NCBI GenBank assembly: GCA_903881565.1
Contig: CAIRTR010000217.1
Coordinates: 1-46,656 of the forward strand
Reading direction: 5' to 3'
DNA: 46,656 nt
Source of the DNA: Oligoflexia bacterium
GTDB taxonomy: Bacteria > Bdellovibrionota > UBA1018
Position 1 is the stretch's first letter. Each line of letters starts with the position of its first letter. A model generated the notes under the pieces. That model saw only the letters and a list, made by a program, of their open reading frames with translations. It was not told the DNA's origin and made no database searches. Position numbers and translations under genes: made by a program. Positions 26,711 through 41,048 of this stretch are shown in pieces.

Positions 26711-27553
26711 ATGTCAGAAAAAAACTTCTCAAAGCCTTTTCCTTGGACCGCACTTTTCGCCACCAGCTTGGCTCTAGGCGCAGGGTTCACTGCGGGACAT
26801 CTCTTTTTTTCGCCCGAGGCCACCTCCAATGAAAAAGGGCTCGTCGGAGTTTTCAATGTGGGGCTGTCTCTTCTTGGATTCGCGGGTCTTCTTGGACTTT
26901 CACTCCGCCATAGAAACCGGCCAGCCCCGCTTCGCAAATCGAGAGAAACGCTACACAGCACTCAGCTTTCGAAATGGATCAAGACCTGTGAGCGATCCCT
27001 GGCCCTGGCAAAACCCAAAACCGCGCTGCTGCAACTCGAATGTTTACGGCGAACGCTCTTCGATGATGAATCAAAATCCGATCGGGTCACAGATCTCCAG
27101 AGCTGGCTCGAGCAACTTGCAACAGAGGCCCGCGAGATGGCGATCCCTGTTGTCCCCCTTGAATCGGCGCCCCCTCTTTGGGCGTTTCTCGATGCCGAGC
27201 TTCTTCGGGCTGCCGTCCTAAATCTCGTGCTCACTTTTTCAAATGAAAACAGGGGCGCCTCCGTACCAGGTAGTCGAATCGTACTCAAGATCACCTCCCC
27301 AAGAAACGGCACCAGCGGTGCCGAGATTCAAGTCGGTTGGAGTTTCGCCCCCTGGAACTCACCTCTTCATGGCGTTTCTTCCGACGACTCCCTCGCACTC
27401 GGCCTCGCTCTTTCCGCTTCTACTCGGCACGGCTTCTCGTTAAAAGAAGTGAGAGAGGGCTCCCAAACCTTGGGTTATGTTTTCACCATGGGACATGAGC
27501 GAATTGCCGACTTTTCAGCTGGGATCCCGCCGTTTGAAGGGCACCGGGTCTAA
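26711..27553 (+). CDS. degenerate sensor-kinase-like membrane protein
   Basis: ATG 26711 has a GAGGAT binding site. Two membrane helices (about 12-30 and 46-64) are followed by a cytoplasmic region. Part of that region looks like a histidine-kinase dimerisation/ATPase unit: ELLRAAVLNLVLTFSNENRG resembles an N-box, and DDSLALGLALSASTRHGF resembles the G2 region. There is no H-box with a phosphorylatable His in an E/D-x-x-N/T-P context. It probably does not autophosphorylate. It may modulate the GlrK/GlrR-like pair next door. It lies between the gliding operon and that system. Its end overlaps the convergent response regulator gene by 39 bases. Confidence 0.6.
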   Translation: MSEKNFSKPFPWTALFATSLALGAGFTAGHLFFSPEATSNEKGLVGVFNVGLSLLGFAGLLGLSLRHRNRPAPLRKSRETLHSTQLSKWIKTCERSLALAKPKTALLQLECLRRTLFDDESKSDRVTDLQSWLEQLATEAREMAIPVVPLESAPPLWAFLDAELLRAAVLNLVLTFSNENRGASVPGSRIVLKITSPRNGTSGAEIQVGWSFAPWNSPLHGVSSDDSLALGLALSASTRHGFSLKEVREGSQTLGYVFTMGHERIADFSAGIPPFEGHRV

Positions 27554-28939
27554 ACCATATTTTCGTATGAGGTTATAGACCTCCGTGCGCGACTTAGACG
27601 CCAGGCGCGCAGCTTGCGCTACATTTCCCGCCGCAGCCAATAGCAGCTGCTTGAGGTAGTTTTGTTCAAACTGTGATTTAGCCTCGGAAAATGCGAGCGG
27701 AAGAACGGAGTCTGACGAAAGGAGCTCTGCACTATTTTCGTCTTGCTCATCTTGGAAAAGCACTTTAGATGACATGAGATTCTCTTGAAAAAGATCCGAG
27801 GCCGACAGCTGCCCTCCTTTTGAGAGAGCCAAAGCCTGTTCAATGCGATTCTGAAGCTCTCGAACATTTCCGGGCCAATCGTGGGCAAGCATGGCTTGTG
27901 ACGCCGAGACCGTGAAACCCTCGAAGTTGACGCTCATTTTTGGGGCCATCTCTATTGCGAAGTGTGAGGCCAAATAGAGAATATCTTTAGGCCGTGCTCG
28001 CAGGGGCGGAATTTCCAAGGGAATCACATGAAGTCGGTAATACAAATCCTGTCGAAACTTTCCTCGCTCCACCTGCTCCTTCAGAGAGCGGTGCGACGCC
28101 GAGATCACACGTACGTCAATTTTTACAGGGACACTCGCACCCACGGGGAGCACCTCCCGCTCCTGAAGAACTCGCAAAAGTTTCGCCTGAATTGACAACG
28201 GTGCATCACCGATTTCATCCAAAAACAGGGAACCTTTTTGCGCTCTCACGAAAAGGCCTGGTTTTGTTTCTTTTGCATCCGTAAATGCTCCACGAACATG
28301 ACCAAAGAGTTCTGACTCCAGCAAAGACTCTGGAAGAGCCGCACAGTTGAAAGCAACAAAAGGAAAGCTCTTGCGCGGGCCACTAAAGTGCAAAGAACGA
28401 GCAACCAGCTCCTTGCCTGTTCCACTCTCCCCTTGGATAACGACACTGCTCGGAACCTGGGCCGCCATCCCAATTCGACGAATCAAAGGATCCATTACGG
28501 GATCCCGAGATCGAATGAAGCTTCGAACTTCAGTTGCGGACAAGGGAGTACGAAGCGGACTGAGATCTTGCTTAAGCTGATAGTCCTCTAGAGCTTGGGC
28601 CACTTGCGCCTTCAGCTCTCCCTCTTGAAAAGGTTTTCGAATATACCCCGTAACGCCAAGGCGGAAAGCCTCGACGGCCGACTCGACATCCCCGTGGGCT
28701 GTCATCATAAAAATGGGCACTTTCGCGTTGATTTCACGAAGTTTCGGTAAAAGGACAAGACCCGAAGCCTCACCTAATCGAAGATCGAGTAGAATCAGGG
28801 CGGGATCGGCTTCCTGGAGAAACTGCAGCGCCTTTGCCTCCGCATCACAGCAATGAACCTCAAACCCGTCTGCCTCAAACGTGAGTGAGAGAATCTCGGA
28901 GAGCTGCTCGTCATCGTCAATAATCAGTAGAGAACTCAT
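27515..28939 (-). CDS. glrR: NtrC-family sigma-54 dependent response regulator (GlrR/QseF-like)
   Basis: The 474-residue protein has three parts: a receiver domain with phospho-accepting D52 (LLDLRLG), an AAA+ domain with Walker A GESGTGKE (170-177), and a Fis-type helix-turn-helix at the end (AGNVAQAARLASKSRTEVYNL). The last region matches the GlrR pattern closely: SEAKSQFEQNYLKQLL. The sigma-54 contact loop is GAFTDA (217-222), not the usual GAFTGA. It activates sigma-54 promoters when phosphorylated, presumably by the kinase at 29202. Its start overlaps the small lipoprotein gene by 4 bases, in the glrK-qseG-glrR order known from enterobacteria. Confidence 0.88.
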   Translation of the reverse strand: MSSLLIIDDDEQLSEILSLTFEADGFEVHCCDAEAKALQFLQEADPALILLDLRLGEASGLVLLPKLREINAKVPIFMMTAHGDVESAVEAFRLGVTGYIRKPFQEGELKAQVAQALEDYQLKQDLSPLRTPLSATEVRSFIRSRDPVMDPLIRRIGMAAQVPSSVVIQGESGTGKELVARSLHFSGPRKSFPFVAFNCAALPESLLESELFGHVRGAFTDAKETKPGLFVRAQKGSLFLDEIGDAPLSIQAKLLRVLQEREVLPVGASVPVKIDVRVISASHRSLKEQVERGKFRQDLYYRLHVIPLEIPPLRARPKDILYLASHFAIEMAPKMSVNFEGFTVSASQAMLAHDWPGNVRELQNRIEQALALSKGGQLSASDLFQENLMSSKVLFQDEQDENSAELLSSDSVLPLAFSEAKSQFEQNYLKQLLLAAAGNVAQAARLASKSRTEVYNLIRKYGLDPVPFKRRDPS

Positions 28940-29205
28940 CGCAGTATCCTCCCGCCTTCTTGATCGAGATTCCTGATCGCGCGCAACTTGGAAGCAAGCT
29001 CCCGATTTTGAATCTCCTGCTTCTTTTGTTTACGGAGCAAGTCTTTCAAAAATACCGTGGGGACGCGGACTTCGGGTTCTTCAACCCGTCCCAGTTCTCT
29101 CTCAAACTCAGGAAATGAGGTCGGTGAAATCCTAACAACGTGTTGCGTTTCAGCGCATCCGAGCCCGACTAGGAAAAGTGCAAATGCTACAAACGTTTTT
29201 CTCAT
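28936..29205 (-). CDS. small lipoprotein in QseG position
   Basis: The 89-residue protein has a signal peptide with lipobox LGLGC. A mature part follows with a short Pro-containing segment and then a basic coiled-coil-like helix (LLRKQKKQEIQNRELASKL). In enterobacteria, QseG sits at this place and binds the GlrK periplasmic region. QseG is much longer, so the equivalence is positional, not proven by similarity. It overlaps the genes on both sides by 4 bases. Confidence 0.6.
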   Translation of the reverse strand: MRKTFVAFALFLVGLGCAETQHVVRISPTSFPEFERELGRVEEPEVRVPTVFLKDLLRKQKKQEIQNRELASKLRAIRNLDQEGGRILR

Positions 29206-30653
29206 GCCCCTCTCCGATCAATCTGGGTGTTGTAAATGCGGGGAACCCAAAAGCGAAAACAGGTGACACCATCATGAAACTCCGCACGAACATTGCCATG
29301 ATGTGCTTCCACAATACGCTTAACCACGTACAGCCCAAGTCCCAGGCCAGCCTTACCCCCAGTGTTGTTCCCACGATAGAACCGATCAAAAAGTTTGGCT
29401 TGATCATCAATTGCGGGGCCTTGGCCTCTGTTCTCAACGGATATCTCCACATGAGGAACGTGCAGCTTCGTCTCGCCGCTATCAGAGACACCAGCAGAGT
29501 CGCAAGCAGCGACGGTGACTTTTACCGGGGTTCCGCCTTCTCCGTACTTAATAGCGTTAATGAGAAGGTTCTCGAGAATTTGAATCATGCCATCGCGATT
29601 GAATGCCGCCATCAATTCAGGGGGCGCGGAGCATTCAATTTCGACCTCTTTTTTATTAGCGAGTGGACGGACTTCCTCGATCGCAGCGTGTATTGCCTCC
29701 GAAAGGTCCTGAGTTGCGAGATCGAATTCGAAGAAACCATTCTCTGAGAACGAGGACTTGAGGAGATTCCCGATGATAGACTCCAATCTTTTTGCCGAAA
29801 GCTGACACGCAGAAAATCCGCGTGACTTCGCATAAGGGGAGAGGCTCTCTCCTCTCGAAGTGAGAAAGGACAGCCCCTCCCTCAAGGCGGCAAGTGGATT
29901 CTTTATTTCATGGGAGAGCGTCGCAAGAAAATCACTCTTCGCGCGTTGCAGACTTTCAAGGCGCTCAGCCATAATATTGAAAGATTTAGCCAAATGGCGA
30001 ATTTCGAGAACATCAGGAAGCGGATCTAGGCGAAAGGTAAGATCGCCGTCATGAATACGCTCAAGTGCATCCCGAAGGCGATCAATGGGTTTGAAAAGCC
30101 CATAACGGAAAACATAACTTATCCAAACCGTGAGAAGGATCGTGAGAAACAGAGAGAGTACGATGAGCCTGAAAATACTAAGAGCGGAGTCATGGGCATG
30201 CCGCAGTTTTACTTGCCGACTTTCATCCAAAACTCGATGAAGCTCAAGCAAAGCAGCCCGCGCAACGCCAGCGTGAGGGTCAGTGAGTTGGGCAAGTGGC
30301 GGCAAACACCGCTCATAGAGCTCCGGAAATCCCTGACGAATGATCCCCAGAAAAGTTTCCGAGCTCACTTTCAGCGCCGCCAAATGGCGCTCTTGCAGGG
30401 TGATATAGGTTGAGTCACGAGTAATGTTCGCTTTTTTTCTCGCCAACGAAAATGCCCCGGCATCTGATTCGAGTTGCGCAATCAAGGTCTGAGAAGATAC
30501 GCCGTAAGTGATAAGCTCTTGAGTCTCATGATAGTGCGTCCGCGCACTGAAATAGGCGCGAAAACCTAAGATTCCCATCATGAGAACTAAGAAAGCCAGA
30601 ATGATTCGAGCATGGGCTTTCAGACTGATGGAAGGTAAGAAACGAAATCGCAC
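29202..30653 (-). CDS. glrK: sensor histidine kinase (GlrK/QseE-like)
   Basis: Two membrane helices (about 16-34 and 160-182) enclose a helical periplasmic sensor of about 125 residues. A HAMP domain lies at about 185-235. The H-box is SHEIKNPL with H248. The N-box is ILENLLINAIKYG, followed by G-boxes including GLGLGLYVVKRI. All catalytic motifs are intact. It should phosphorylate the GlrR-like regulator encoded two genes downstream. Length is 483 aa, typical of GlrK. The operon promoter presumably lies in 30654-30825, shared with the divergent 30826 gene. Confidence 0.88.
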   Translation of the reverse strand: MRFRFLPSISLKAHARIILAFLVLMMGILGFRAYFSARTHYHETQELITYGVSSQTLIAQLESDAGAFSLARKKANITRDSTYITLQERHLAALKVSSETFLGIIRQGFPELYERCLPPLAQLTDPHAGVARAALLELHRVLDESRQVKLRHAHDSALSIFRLIVLSLFLTILLTVWISYVFRYGLFKPIDRLRDALERIHDGDLTFRLDPLPDVLEIRHLAKSFNIMAERLESLQRAKSDFLATLSHEIKNPLAALREGLSFLTSRGESLSPYAKSRGFSACQLSAKRLESIIGNLLKSSFSENGFFEFDLATQDLSEAIHAAIEEVRPLANKKEVEIECSAPPELMAAFNRDGMIQILENLLINAIKYGEGGTPVKVTVAACDSAGVSDSGETKLHVPHVEISVENRGQGPAIDDQAKLFDRFYRGNNTGGKAGLGLGLYVVKRIVEAHHGNVRAEFHDGVTCFRFWVPRIYNTQIDRRGA

Positions 30654-30825: not shown

Positions 30826-31896
30826 ATGGATCGACTCAATCTCCGCTTAAGCATTTTTTTCCTTCCCCTAACCGCGGTGCTTTTTTTTATGGGATGTCAG
30901 CAGCTTCCGAATGGAGTTTCCGCCTCCCCCTCCAACCCCCAAGCTTCGATCAGTGAGCCCCAGGCTCTCCCTGCTGCGAATACTGCGAACACAACGATTT
31001 CGGTCACTCCCGACCTGCAGATGCTTCAAGGCAAGGATCAGGTCAAGGTTCACGTGAAAAGTACCCATCGGCGCACGCATTGCCTAAAAGAGGTGCACAT
31101 TAAGGTAGCGTCGGTTGAGTTTCGCAAAAGAGGCCACGAAGAAGATCGTGATTTTGATAATGAAAACGACCGTGACCACAAGTGCGGCTATGAGGGCAAG
31201 TTCGAGCATCGCGAAAGTGATCGTTGCGAGAGTCGACTTACGCAGCGTGACGTACTAGAGGATCTGGATATCGAAGGACACACTTCTGGGGTCCCGCCGG
31301 GTGATTATACGCAGTTGCGGCTGAAACTTTCAGAAGCTTGGGCCACTCTTGACGATGATTCGATCGTAGAGCTTAAGGTACCTAGTGGATCAGAGAGTGG
31401 ACTCAAGGTCATGCTAAACCACCCTCTTCAGATCCGAGATGGCAACGAATTCTCCGGACTGCCAGAAGAGATCTATATCGAATTTGATTTTTCACGCTCC
31501 TTTGTCTTCAGGGGCCACACCTGCTCAGCTCCTGATAACGACGGAGTGATCCTGAAGCCGGTTGTGCGGGGTGAAGTTGTTTCTACAACAGGAACGCTGC
31601 AGGGAACTGTTCAGTCCGACGAAGGGACGGCGGGATTTACGGACGATGATCAAGCTCTGGCTGGAGCCATTATCGAGGTTCAAGCAGGCGGAGTCGTCGT
31701 CACGACAACTCAGGCGGATGCAAATGGTGCCTACTCGATCCCTGCACTTGCCGAGGGCACATATGATTTGGTTGTGAGCGCCGATCAGCATTCCACTCAA
31801 ACCGTGACCGGAATTTCGATCTCGGCCGGGGTGAGTACCGCACAGGACATACTCCTTTCGATGGTTAGTTCAGGAGGTGGAACCGTGGCCCCCTAG
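30826..31896 (+). CDS. DUF4382-type lipoprotein with C-terminal carboxypeptidase-regulatory-like domain
   Basis: The start is ATG 30826 (MDRLNLRLS) behind GTGAGGA; a longer frame from 30580 is antisense to glrK and not credible. The signal peptide ends at the lipobox FFMGC. The DUF4382 domain (about 55-255) has HCLKEVHIKVASVEFR, PPGDYTQLRLKL and ILKPVVRGEV, interrupted by a charged His/Asp/Glu/Arg-rich insert (HEEDRDFDNENDRDHK). A CarboxypepD_reg-like beta-sandwich follows (DDDQALAGAIIEVQ...ANGAYSIPALAEGTYDLVVS). It should be surface or periplasmic. Function is unknown. Confidence 0.75.
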   Translation: MDRLNLRLSIFFLPLTAVLFFMGCQQLPNGVSASPSNPQASISEPQALPAANTANTTISVTPDLQMLQGKDQVKVHVKSTHRRTHCLKEVHIKVASVEFRKRGHEEDRDFDNENDRDHKCGYEGKFEHRESDRCESRLTQRDVLEDLDIEGHTSGVPPGDYTQLRLKLSEAWATLDDDSIVELKVPSGSESGLKVMLNHPLQIRDGNEFSGLPEEIYIEFDFSRSFVFRGHTCSAPDNDGVILKPVVRGEVVSTTGTLQGTVQSDEGTAGFTDDDQALAGAIIEVQAGGVVVTTTQADANGAYSIPALAEGTYDLVVSADQHSTQTVTGISISAGVSTAQDILLSMVSSGGGTVAP

Positions 31897-31940
31897 CATC
31901 CCTCTCTCGGCCATCTACAGCTTGTACTTTCTCTCATTCT

Positions 31941-31976
31941 TGCCCATAATGTTTTCCTAGGAGAACATTATGGGCA
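31941..31976 (+). promoter_or_regulatory. palindromic hairpin that buries the start of the 31970 gene
   Basis: TGCCCATAATGTT (31941-31953) and AACATTATGGGCA (31964-31976) are perfect arms. With one G-U pair the RNA stem can extend inward to CCUAGG. The right half contains the AGGAG binding site and the ATG at 31970, so translation should be blocked when the hairpin forms. Confidence 0.75.
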
Positions 31977-33403
31977 TCAGACTTTACGCACTCCCGCTTT
32001 TGGTAGGCTTTGCCTTTTTGGGTTCGCATGAAGCCAAAGCTGCAGCGCCGAACTCACCCATAGCTCCTATTCCAAACGCAGAGCTCTCTCCCGTCTCCGA
32101 CGAATTCAACCTTCCTTCGCTTCGTTCCACATCGGCGTGGCTCACTGAAACAGACCAACCCTCTCAACTCGCCTGGAAGAAGAAAACCATGTGGGCCTGG
32201 GGCAGCACTCCTGGACCGATTTCCATAAAACATTTGCTCCTGAGAACCTGGATTTTTCTTCCCCCCAAATACTCCCTTGCATCCGTGGACGCTGCGCACA
32301 TGCGCCAGGCTCAAGACCCGGGGACGCCCCCCGTTCTAAAAACAGACGAAGCTCCATTTGCCATTGATATGGATGCCCCTGCAGATACGGGCACTCTTCA
32401 AATCAAAGATCCAGCCGGAAAAATATCCACGGTGAAACTTAGAGTCGAAGTAAACAACCCCTCGCCAGTAGCTGTAACCCACCCGTCTTGCCGTGAGAGC
32501 GGCTTAGGATTGAGTGCGAAACGAGGCAAAGGAAATATTGCATTTTCCTCGGCCATTTGCGTGGATCGCGGCAATGCCGTTGATCTGTTCTTCTTTTATT
32601 CCCGCGATGGTGTTTTGAAAAAGACTGGCATCTCGGGGCTCAAAAATACCACAACCGGTATGATCGAAATCCACTTGCCGAAACCCAAACAAATCTGGAG
32701 TGGCCCGCGCTGGATCGGGGGTTTTCAGATTGCGGAGAAGCAAACTGACGTTCCGGCAGAGTATCTCGTTTACTTCGCGCCGAGAGCCGCACGCACCTCT
32801 TCAGGCGTAACCCCCGAAGTTGCGTTCACTTATCTCAGCTACTCCGAAGATCCCGGCGATATTCGGATCACCGAAACCGCGGTGACGGGGAAACTCAGCG
32901 GTGAACTTAATTTGATTCCTTCGGTTCTCGATGTCGACGCTTCGGTGTTCATGACTTTGGTTCCGACTTCTCACTCCCCTGCCGATTTTGATGCCGCACG
33001 ATTCTATGGTTTGAATGCGCGGCTGGGTTATCACTTGCCGCTGGGGATGGGTGCAACCGAGTGGCGGTTTCTGTTGGGCGCCTACATCTGGGGAATGAGT
33101 GTTCCTGGAAACGCTTACGGGATTCAATCCCTCTGGGGTCCGCAGATGTTCATCTCGACAAGGCACCAGCAAGTGGGCACGCGCAACTGGTCTTTTTATG
33201 TAAAATACGTACCGCTTACGAGTGGCTTTTCCTTGGGCAACCGCGAGTTGGCCAGCGGAATCAGTTATCAGATCAACTCACCTGAAGCTCGAACCGCCTG
33301 GAGTTTGACTTTAAATGTTTCTGATTTCCGCTACAAAGCCGCTGACGATTCTGGAAAAGTGGGGTTGTTTTCGACCTCGATGGGGATTCAGGTCGGACTG
33401 TAA
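31970..33403 (+). CDS. outer-membrane protein with N-terminal periplasmic region and C-terminal barrel
   Basis: ATG 31970 follows AGGAG. A signal peptide (about 1-24, ending AKA) precedes a long soluble stretch (about 25-170) containing GPISIKHLLLRTW and IDMDAPADTG. A central beta domain is followed by a C-terminal part with alternating aromatic strands (GLNARLGYHL, GNRELASGISYQI) ending GIQVGL, barrel-like. I do not recognise the family. Its start lies inside a strong RNA hairpin, so its synthesis is probably controlled at translation. Confidence 0.6.
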   Translation: MGIRLYALPLLVGFAFLGSHEAKAAAPNSPIAPIPNAELSPVSDEFNLPSLRSTSAWLTETDQPSQLAWKKKTMWAWGSTPGPISIKHLLLRTWIFLPPKYSLASVDAAHMRQAQDPGTPPVLKTDEAPFAIDMDAPADTGTLQIKDPAGKISTVKLRVEVNNPSPVAVTHPSCRESGLGLSAKRGKGNIAFSSAICVDRGNAVDLFFFYSRDGVLKKTGISGLKNTTTGMIEIHLPKPKQIWSGPRWIGGFQIAEKQTDVPAEYLVYFAPRAARTSSGVTPEVAFTYLSYSEDPGDIRITETAVTGKLSGELNLIPSVLDVDASVFMTLVPTSHSPADFDAARFYGLNARLGYHLPLGMGATEWRFLLGAYIWGMSVPGNAYGIQSLWGPQMFISTRHQQVGTRNWSFYVKYVPLTSGFSLGNRELASGISYQINSPEARTAWSLTLNVSDFRYKAADDSGKVGLFSTSMGIQVGL

Positions 33404-33444: not shown

Positions 33445-33463
33445 GTTGACCAAAAAGATCAAC
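33445..33463 (+). promoter_or_regulatory. 19-bp palindrome upstream of the first Ig-kelch gene
   Basis: GTTGACCAAAAAGATCAAC has 5-bp perfect outer arms. The same 19-bp design occurs at 36472 before the paralogous gene, so it is a candidate shared operator; TTGACC may also serve as a -35 element. Confidence 0.5.
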
Positions 33464-33496
33464 AATAATAACATAATGAGTAGGGGATTTGTTTAT

Positions 33497-36471: not shown

Positions 36472-36490
36472 GTTGACTTAATTGGTCAAC
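36472..36490 (+). promoter_or_regulatory. 19-bp palindrome upstream of the second Ig-kelch gene
   Basis: GTTGACTTAATTGGTCAAC has 6-bp perfect arms, the same length and half-sites as the palindrome at 33445. Both are followed by an A/T-rich stretch and then AGGGGAT before the gene. Confidence 0.5.
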
Positions 36491-36500
36491 TAAAATAAAC

Positions 36501-36521
36501 TTATAGATAGGGGATCTATAA
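36501..36521 (+). promoter_or_regulatory. leader hairpin presenting an SD-like loop
   Basis: TTATAGAT (36501-36508) and ATCTATAA (36514-36521) are perfect 8-bp arms with AGGGG as the loop. The real binding site AGGGGG follows at 36521-36526 before ATG 36534. A decoy or standby ribosome site is possible. Confidence 0.45.
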
Positions 36522-39322: not shown

Positions 39323-40198
39323 TCACAAGCATCGCTGAACCATTACCGCTATTCTTTCCAACTGTTTCCAAGCGCTTTCAAAATCAAAAATAGAAAAGTC
39401 CCTATCCCGCAATACCGGGCGCAGATCTGTCTCTAACTGATCTTTGAATGCGGCTTTCCGCTCCAACGAAACCTGAATCTGGCCATTCCCAGAAACTTGA
39501 AACTTCTCCTTAATCAAAGCTAACCAACCCTGCTCATCTAAAGGAATATGACTATTGCGTGTTGCGTGATCCAGGTCGTACAGGTCCCTGATCGCAGCTT
39601 CCTTTCGCGTTAGCGCTGCCCGGACCTTTTCGGCGTAAGCCTCTCCTTTGGATAGGCAGGCAACATCAAAATGGGGTATCAACGGCGCATCAGTATAAGG
39701 GTCTTGAAGCAAAGTTGCAGCGGCCTTCATGACGGCTTCATGGACTTTTTCACGTTGGCTAATCTCAATCAAAATAGAATCTGTTTTCTCAATGAGCACA
39801 GAATTATATATAACAGTAGCATTGTACTGCCTCGACTCATTACTTCCCGTCAAAGACTTCTCAAGCACAACTCCAGGAATATTAGTAGGGAGTGCCAAAA
39901 CAATTGCCTTCAGAGGCTTTGCATTTTTGCTGCGCTCACCACGAGTGGTTTTAAAATCCGTCGAAATAGTAAAATCAAGATCTTCACTTAGCCTATAAAA
40001 TCCCGCATGAACTTTATTCAAAAGAGTTCCGCCTTTGAAAACAAGAGCGTTCCGCGTTTTCATTAACTCTCTTAAAACCAGCGAACAATAATAATCCTTT
40101 TCAATCAGGCGCGCGGAAAAGCCAGTTTTACCTTCGACAAATCGGATCGAATCCTTAAATGCGCTACGATCCTGATGCGGCAATAAAGGGTTAGACAT
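39323..40198 (-). CDS. abiEii: AbiEii-type nucleotidyltransferase toxin (type IV toxin-antitoxin)
   Basis: The 291-residue protein has the AbiEii/AbiGii nucleotidyltransferase signature: FKGGTLLNKVH (GG-T/S motif), then FYRLSEDLDFTI (D-x-D metal site). Later family motifs include a conserved ...KGEAYAEKVRAALTRKEA segment and IRDLYDLDHA. AbiEii enzymes use a nucleotide donor to halt growth; related enzymes modify tRNA. The cognate antitoxin gene overlaps its start by 8 bases. The catalytic residues are intact, so the toxin should work. It is one of the two intact genes on the island bounded by repeat B. Confidence 0.85.
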   Translation of the reverse strand: MSNPLLPHQDRSAFKDSIRFVEGKTGFSARLIEKDYYCSLVLRELMKTRNALVFKGGTLLNKVHAGFYRLSEDLDFTISTDFKTTRGERSKNAKPLKAIVLALPTNIPGVVLEKSLTGSNESRQYNATVIYNSVLIEKTDSILIEISQREKVHEAVMKAAATLLQDPYTDAPLIPHFDVACLSKGEAYAEKVRAALTRKEAAIRDLYDLDHATRNSHIPLDEQGWLALIKEKFQVSGNGQIQVSLERKAAFKDQLETDLRPVLRDRDFSIFDFESAWKQLERIAVMVQRCL

Positions 40199-40994
40199 TG
40201 AGAATCAAACCCCATTTTACATCGATTTTTCCACGCGCACTTTTTGTGGGATCCAGCGGCACAAAGGATCTTTGACTTGGAATAGTTTTCATAATCTTGG
40301 CAAGATAGGGCTTCGAATATTTCACCCCATCAAGCACAAAGCCCACACGCTTCTTCACAGCGACATTTCCGAGCTTGAGCAATATTCTCAAAAATTCATC
40401 CATAAATTTCTTGTCATTTACCCGCTCCTTGAGCCAACCAAAGGCCTTAGACTGCGTGCCATACTTCTCACAGTCATAAATCGCATCAAATACTGCGCGA
40501 GGGAGTGAGCTAAACTTAACCACAATCTCCCCCTCTCGCTCCTTTACATTATAGCCTTGGGTAAATCCCAGACGATCCGGCGCAATCTTAATAAACCGAT
40601 AATTTTGACCCGCAATTTTCTTCAACCCTGAAAGTTTGTCATTATACACATCCAATTGATTTGGCACCTGAGTATCTAAACCATATGAACTAAAAACCGT
40701 AAGACCGCTGATTTGATAGCCCTTCGCACTTACCGCTTTCATCAGCGCATCCACAATTAAGTATCCCGAGGGACTAAACACCCCTCCAGGTGGAAGTGTC
40801 TTTGGGACTAAATAGAGGCCCCGCATGAGTTTAGCGATAAGTCGCTTCTTAGATAACTGAGCAAGGAGTCTGGCCTCTTGCACCGGGGTCAAGCGTAAGG
40901 CGGCCAGCAGATCGCCTGTCTTTACGACCGTGATTCCCCTATTTTGTGACCAAGAAAGAAACTTGGACTCTATCGATCCATACCGTTCCACCAT
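40191..40994 (-). CDS. abiEi: AbiEi-type antitoxin / transcriptional repressor
   Basis: The 267-residue protein has an N-terminal winged-helix (about 8-70: TGDLLAALRLTPVQEARLLAQLSKKRLIAKLMRGLYLVP), typical of AbiEi. The C-terminal antitoxin domain has the block ERKA-like ISGLTVFSSYGL and later FSSLPRAVFDAIYD. AbiEi neutralises AbiEii and represses the operon by binding inverted repeats in the promoter. Such a repeat lies directly upstream here. It precedes and overlaps the toxin gene, the standard order. Confidence 0.83.
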   Translation of the reverse strand: MVERYGSIESKFLSWSQNRGITVVKTGDLLAALRLTPVQEARLLAQLSKKRLIAKLMRGLYLVPKTLPPGGVFSPSGYLIVDALMKAVSAKGYQISGLTVFSSYGLDTQVPNQLDVYNDKLSGLKKIAGQNYRFIKIAPDRLGFTQGYNVKEREGEIVVKFSSLPRAVFDAIYDCEKYGTQSKAFGWLKERVNDKKFMDEFLRILLKLGNVAVKKRVGFVLDGVKYSKPYLAKIMKTIPSQRSFVPLDPTKSARGKIDVKWGLILNV

Positions 40995-41048
40995 ATATTC
41001 TATTTACGCTAATTCTGGTCTAACCGCAATACAAGAAAATAGAATATA
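40994..41048 (-). promoter_or_regulatory. inverted-repeat operator of the abiE operon
   Basis: TATATTCTATTT (40994-41005) is mirrored exactly by AAATAGAATATA (41037-41048), 12-bp arms about 31 bp apart. The arm overlaps the abiEi start codon. AbiEi antitoxins are known to bind paired inverted repeats, so this is the likely autoregulatory site. Confidence 0.65.

Follow-up and report, generated by a model that had tools for sequence, protein, structure and literature searches.

A palindrome over the start codon of a secreted-protein gene as a possible read-through insulator in an Oligoflexia bacterium

In the window (the whole 46,656-nt stretch of DNA analysed here), the Shine-Dalgarno sequence and the start codon of a gene for a 477-aa secreted protein lie within a near-perfect 36-nt palindrome (31941-31976). 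The palindrome is a real, non-random structure, and the best explanation we can offer, to which we assign a probability of roughly 0.4, is that it acts as a read-through insulator. We infer from the sequence and its predicted folds that a sigma70-type promoter, TTGTAC-17-CATAAT, with its -10 box inside the left arm would drive the gene, and that the gene's own transcript would begin at or near the dyad centre, hold the right arm only (AGGAGAACAUUAUG...), be free of the hairpin and, with a leader some 11-13 nt long, be translated. RNA reading through from the upstream gene would bear both arms, fold into a 16-pair hairpin and not be translated from the start at 31970, and the regulatory purpose would be that expression of the protein is set by its own promoter and not by that of the neighbour. 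This explanation draws on the palindrome itself, its predicted stability, its overlap with the Shine-Dalgarno sequence and the AUG, the 73-nt gap to an upstream gene on the same strand and the preference of the genome for short leaders. If it is correct, the gene would add a case, on a chromosome and unrelated to phages or sporulation, in which structure alone, with no terminator, protects a gene from transcription of its neighbour. A start codon within a hairpin need not imply riboswitch-like control, as the transcription start decides whether the hairpin exists at all. The features discussed are collected in Table 1.

Table 1. Positions of the palindrome arms, the candidate promoter elements and the genes and repeats discussed in the text
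Feature	Position	Strand	Remarks
Left arm, TGCCCATAATGTTTTCCT	31941..31958	+	In RNA that includes the left arm, would base-pair with the start region
Right arm, AGGAGAACATTATGGGCA	31959..31976	+	Contains Shine-Dalgarno AGGAG, ATG, codon 2 and the start of codon 3
Candidate -35 box, TTGTAC	31922..31927	+	3/6, consensus match only
Candidate -10 box, CATAAT	31945..31950	+	5/6, 17 nt past the -35 box, within the left arm
Predicted transcription start, dyad centre	31957..31959	+	About 11-13 nt before ATG; placed from the position of the -10 box
Gene for 477-aa secreted protein	31970..33403	+	Signal-peptide-like N-terminus
Upstream gene, lipoprotein-like, DUF4382 and carboxypeptidase-regulatory-like domains	30826..31896	+	Possible source of read-through RNA
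Intergenic gap, 73 nt	31897..31969	+	No terminator-like site found
AAA_14-associated repeats	Loci L173-L222 (e.g. L195, L180, L200, L193, L187); also L113:17357-17396 and L135:13314-13356

Structure and predicted stability of the palindrome

The palindrome consists of two 18-nt DNA arms with no spacer between them, which match at 17 of 18 positions (34 of the 36 nucleotides are symmetric), and TGCCCATAATGTT (31941-31953) is exactly complementary to AACATTATGGGCA (31964-31976). The sole mismatch between the arms, T31954/G31963, becomes a G-U pair in RNA and is harmless to the RNA stem. When folded as RNA, 31941-31976 is predicted to form 16 pairs, one of them G-U, that close a CUAG loop with -23.0 kcal/mol for the element alone, and a 121-nt region folds at -33.0 kcal/mol compared with a mean of -21.6 kcal/mol for dinucleotide shuffles (z -3.9). 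In the predicted fold the AUG (31970-31972) is fully paired, its partner being CAU at 31945-31947, and the Shine-Dalgarno sequence AGGAG (31959-31963) is partly paired, with its initial AG in the loop and GAG in the stem. An earlier note, made from the letters of the sequence, had described a near-perfect palindrome at this place, with a stem extended by a G-U pair towards a CUAG loop and with AGGAG and ATG in the 3' arm, and had suggested that the folding energy be computed; its coordinates and its description agree with the analysis in all these respects. The same note had held that the element is not a terminator, and indeed an intrinsic terminator at the palindrome was rejected, as no U-run follows the stem and a terminator scan gave no match at the palindrome or in the intergenic gap.

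Opening of the start region is predicted to cost 24.0 kcal/mol in RNA with both arms as against 4.8-5.8 kcal/mol in RNA beginning at 31951-31959. Strong sequestration of the start, on which the earlier proposal of translational control was based, is thus borne out by prediction for RNA that carries both arms, whereas the switches proposed to operate it fit poorly, as discussed below. A search of Rfam gave no match at the curated score, and only a sub-threshold match to potC (22.6 of 44 bits), which lies on the opposite strand, was obtained.

The gene, its product and its neighbours

The ATG at 31970 is the earliest possible start of its reading frame and the signal-peptide-like sequence (MGIRLYALPLLVGFAFLGSHEAKA/A, judged by eye) begins there, and therefore the start call is sound. 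Four paralogues of the 477-aa protein are encoded in its own genome. Of the 96 related genomes searched, 45 have distant homologues (about 23-41% identity), the source genome being the only one of its genus among the genomes compared. The best homologues are about 30% identical, lie in other contexts and lack the palindrome. No Pfam family above the cut-off, no NCBIfam match and no relative in the PDB (by profile search) were obtained for the protein, and a single-sequence fold model reached a pLDDT of 33. The designation as an outer-membrane protein, which had been given to the product in the earlier note, is therefore unconfirmed by these searches, although an outer-membrane location is plausible.

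The upstream DUF4382 gene has only partial and distant matches. Downstream on the same strand follow a gene of the Kelch/putative-Ig type and then another large gene, and both of these next genes of the run have promoter-like sites of their own in the gaps before them (33446-33474 and 36473-36501). An inverted repeat, GTTGAC-N7-GTCAAC, over the -35 boxes is common to these two genes (33445-33463, with one mismatch, and 36472-36490); with one mismatch allowed it occurs at only 12 places in the genome, compared with 8 for the reversed control. The regulators nearest to the palindrome are a sigma54-type response regulator and its kinase (27515-30653). A sigma54 site was considered and rejected on reading the sequence, as no GG stands ten bases 5' of the GC in TTGCCC.

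A candidate promoter within the left arm

In a simple scan of the 140 nt upstream of the ATG, TTGTAC-17-CATAAT was the only sigma70-like site with a match of at least 8/12, which is a weak match. As its -10 box lies in the left arm, the transcript is predicted to start at the centre of the palindrome. According to the earlier note, a transcription start inside or downstream of the left arm would refute its view of the hairpin as part of the messenger; the start predicted here, at the dyad centre, is of this kind, but at 8/12 the match is weak and the start is a predicted one. Also, within the palindrome CATAAT is simply the sequence that pairs with ATTATG at the start codon, and its resemblance to a promoter may be a side effect of this symmetry. 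A promoter model trained on the genome gives the TTGTAC/CATAAT pair a score of 2.6 compared with a median best score of 5.9, and favours a pair at 31940/31963, from which the start would come after the ATG.

Among 663 gene starts in 1.57 Mb of the genome, -10 boxes (matches of at least 9/12) that end 20-24 nt before a start codon are enriched, with 14 found and 2.7 expected, and the candidate CATAAT, which ends 19 nt before the ATG, is at the edge of this peak. A second peak of -10 boxes was seen 5-9 nt before start codons. The two peaks suggest that the genome has many leaderless and short-leader genes. No genome-wide association was found between hairpins at ribosome-binding sites and short-leader promoters (Fisher p about 0.8-1), and therefore the proposal of a read-through insulator concerns one gene and does not describe a rule.

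Rarity of the palindrome within the genome

The genome survey covered 1.57 Mb, about a third of the 4.56 Mb, and 1272 gene starts, which were called by a simple home-made ORF script and of which individual ones may be wrong. No other of these 1272 starts folds locally as stably as the one at 31970 (-24.4 kcal/mol, compared with a mean of -7.8 and a standard deviation of 4.2). The 1.57 Mb contain six inverted repeats with arms of at least 17 nt (one mismatch allowed, loop of up to 10), all six in intergenic DNA (six in 0.29 Mb, as against none in 1.28 Mb of coding DNA), and none was obtained in six order-3 Markov simulations of equal size. For arms of 14-16 nt, coding DNA shows a slight excess, with 7 found and about 2.5 in simulation. 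Hairpins at ribosome-binding sites are in modest excess over shuffles at the strongest thresholds only (21 and 8.3, respectively, at -14 kcal/mol).

A second copy of the palindrome was not found, and nothing recognisable beyond chance was seen in the 1.57 Mb; as no other copy of an arm occurs in the genome, a dispersed repeated element was rejected. The palindrome patterns are also absent from the genome and viral collections that were scanned. Four short CCATAATG..CATTATGG matches occur elsewhere in the phylum, with different centres and in distant families.

Comparison with known hairpins at translation starts

In bacteriophage T4, the start sites of genes e, soc, 49 and I-TevI are hidden in RNA that comes from upstream, and in the cases of e and I-TevI, RNA from late promoters is without the 5' portion of the structure and does get translated; the effect is 100-fold for gene e (PMC3014915, PMC2988022). 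For sigG of Bacillus subtilis, it was proposed that a hairpin with over 20 pairs blocks read-through RNA; the sigG transcript itself is unable to form this hairpin. A separate hairpin of five pairs with -6.2 kcal/mol cuts sigG translation 2-4-fold (PMC5942855). With the latter as a yardstick, a stem of -23 kcal/mol in the normal leader would nearly silence the gene, and a transcription start inside the palindrome is therefore the more sensible assumption.

The arrangement described here resembles that of the four T4 genes in that a stable hairpin lies on the Shine-Dalgarno sequence and/or the AUG and transcripts from upstream would be silenced; a promoter in or beside the 5' arm, such that the gene's own transcript lacks the hairpin, would be a further likeness if the weak candidate site is real. 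The pairing of the Shine-Dalgarno sequence and/or the AUG in upstream-derived RNA, which characterizes T4 e, I-TevI and sigG, is predicted here as well. Unlike the T4 cases, it is found on a bacterial chromosome, with a sigma70-like site in place of a late phage promoter, and it has a predicted start and no known temporal programme. Unlike sigG, which encodes a sporulation sigma factor, the gene encodes a secreted protein in an unrelated bacterium. By analogy, the palindrome would function like the T4 and sigG hairpins if the promoter is real, and the gene would then be a further example of a mechanism already known elsewhere.

Alternative explanations

The main rival to a read-through insulator, which we regard as somewhat unlikely, is that the palindrome serves as an operator in the DNA: a regulator acting as a dimer would bind across the -10 box, the transcription start and the ribosome-binding site, in the position of the lac operator, and block transcription, the RNA hairpin being incidental. 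Operators of the lac type are palindromes of about 35 bp that overlap the transcription start and lie either on the -10 box or immediately 3' of it, and the present palindrome, of about the same length and over the candidate -10 box, has a similar position. The high symmetry at the DNA level (34/36) speaks for an operator, yet 17 of 18 matching positions with no spacer exceed what is usual for operators, and compared with lac-type operators the symmetry is higher, no regulator is known and there are no auxiliary copies. Several long inverted repeats elsewhere in this genome resemble operators placed on promoters at the starts of genes: those of AAA_14-type ATPase genes (12 of 30 score at least 9, compared with 36 of 1272 genes), of an RHH antitoxin-like gene and, in the window itself, of an AbiEi gene. 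However, the palindrome is unique in the genome and so does not form a recurring regulon site, which would leave an operator with a single target; the 477-aa protein is not DNA-binding, and among its neighbours we recognised no gene for a simple repressor. It is very doubtful that the palindrome works on two levels at once, as DNA containing a -10 box and perhaps bound by a regulator, and as RNA silencing all transcripts not begun at its centre, such that a surface-protein gene would be translatable only from its own promoter.

An unlikely alternative is that the hairpin belongs to the normal leader and that a thermosensor, an RNA-binding protein, an sRNA or processing toggles translation. Wherever both arms are present in an RNA, the Shine-Dalgarno sequence and the AUG would be hidden by pairing, and with the upstream gene only 73 nt away, cotranscription is possible. 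However, the stem begins about 45 nt beyond 31896, where a ribosome on the upstream gene would stop, and would not be opened by that ribosome. Control by temperature, one of the earlier proposals, is unlikely given a stem that is predicted to remain folded above 80 C and is thus too stable for an RNA thermometer. Control by an sRNA also fits poorly, as a trans-acting sRNA able to release the start would need a sequence like that of the right arm, and the genome contains no second locus of this kind. The Rfam search gave nothing near threshold.

Finally, the palindrome might have arisen by mutational accident, when a recent template switch copied the start region to the other side, and have little or no function, which we regard as quite improbable. 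Its restriction to this genome, its absence from homologues, its near-perfect arms without a spacer and the slight enrichment of coding DNA in arms of 14-16 nt would all be explained in this way. On the other hand, the confinement of arms of at least 17 nt to intergenic DNA suggests that the longest repeats are under selection, or are acceptable nowhere but between genes, although purifying selection within genes could yield the same contrast.

Other inverted repeats in the genome

About 60 genes for AAA_14 (PF13173) ATPases are present in the genome, and at the promoter or start codon of many of them lies a long inverted repeat, whose sequence differs from gene to gene; these repeats may be operators over leaderless promoters. 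In the window, an AbiEi/AbiEii-type toxin-antitoxin pair is located on the minus strand (39323-40994), and a 12-bp inverted repeat (40994-41005 / 41037-41048) lies at the start of AbiEi. At L117:5065-5092, a perfect 28-bp palindrome lies just 5' of the Shine-Dalgarno sequence of the RHH antitoxin-like gene (recognised by eye), which is followed by a second small reading frame.
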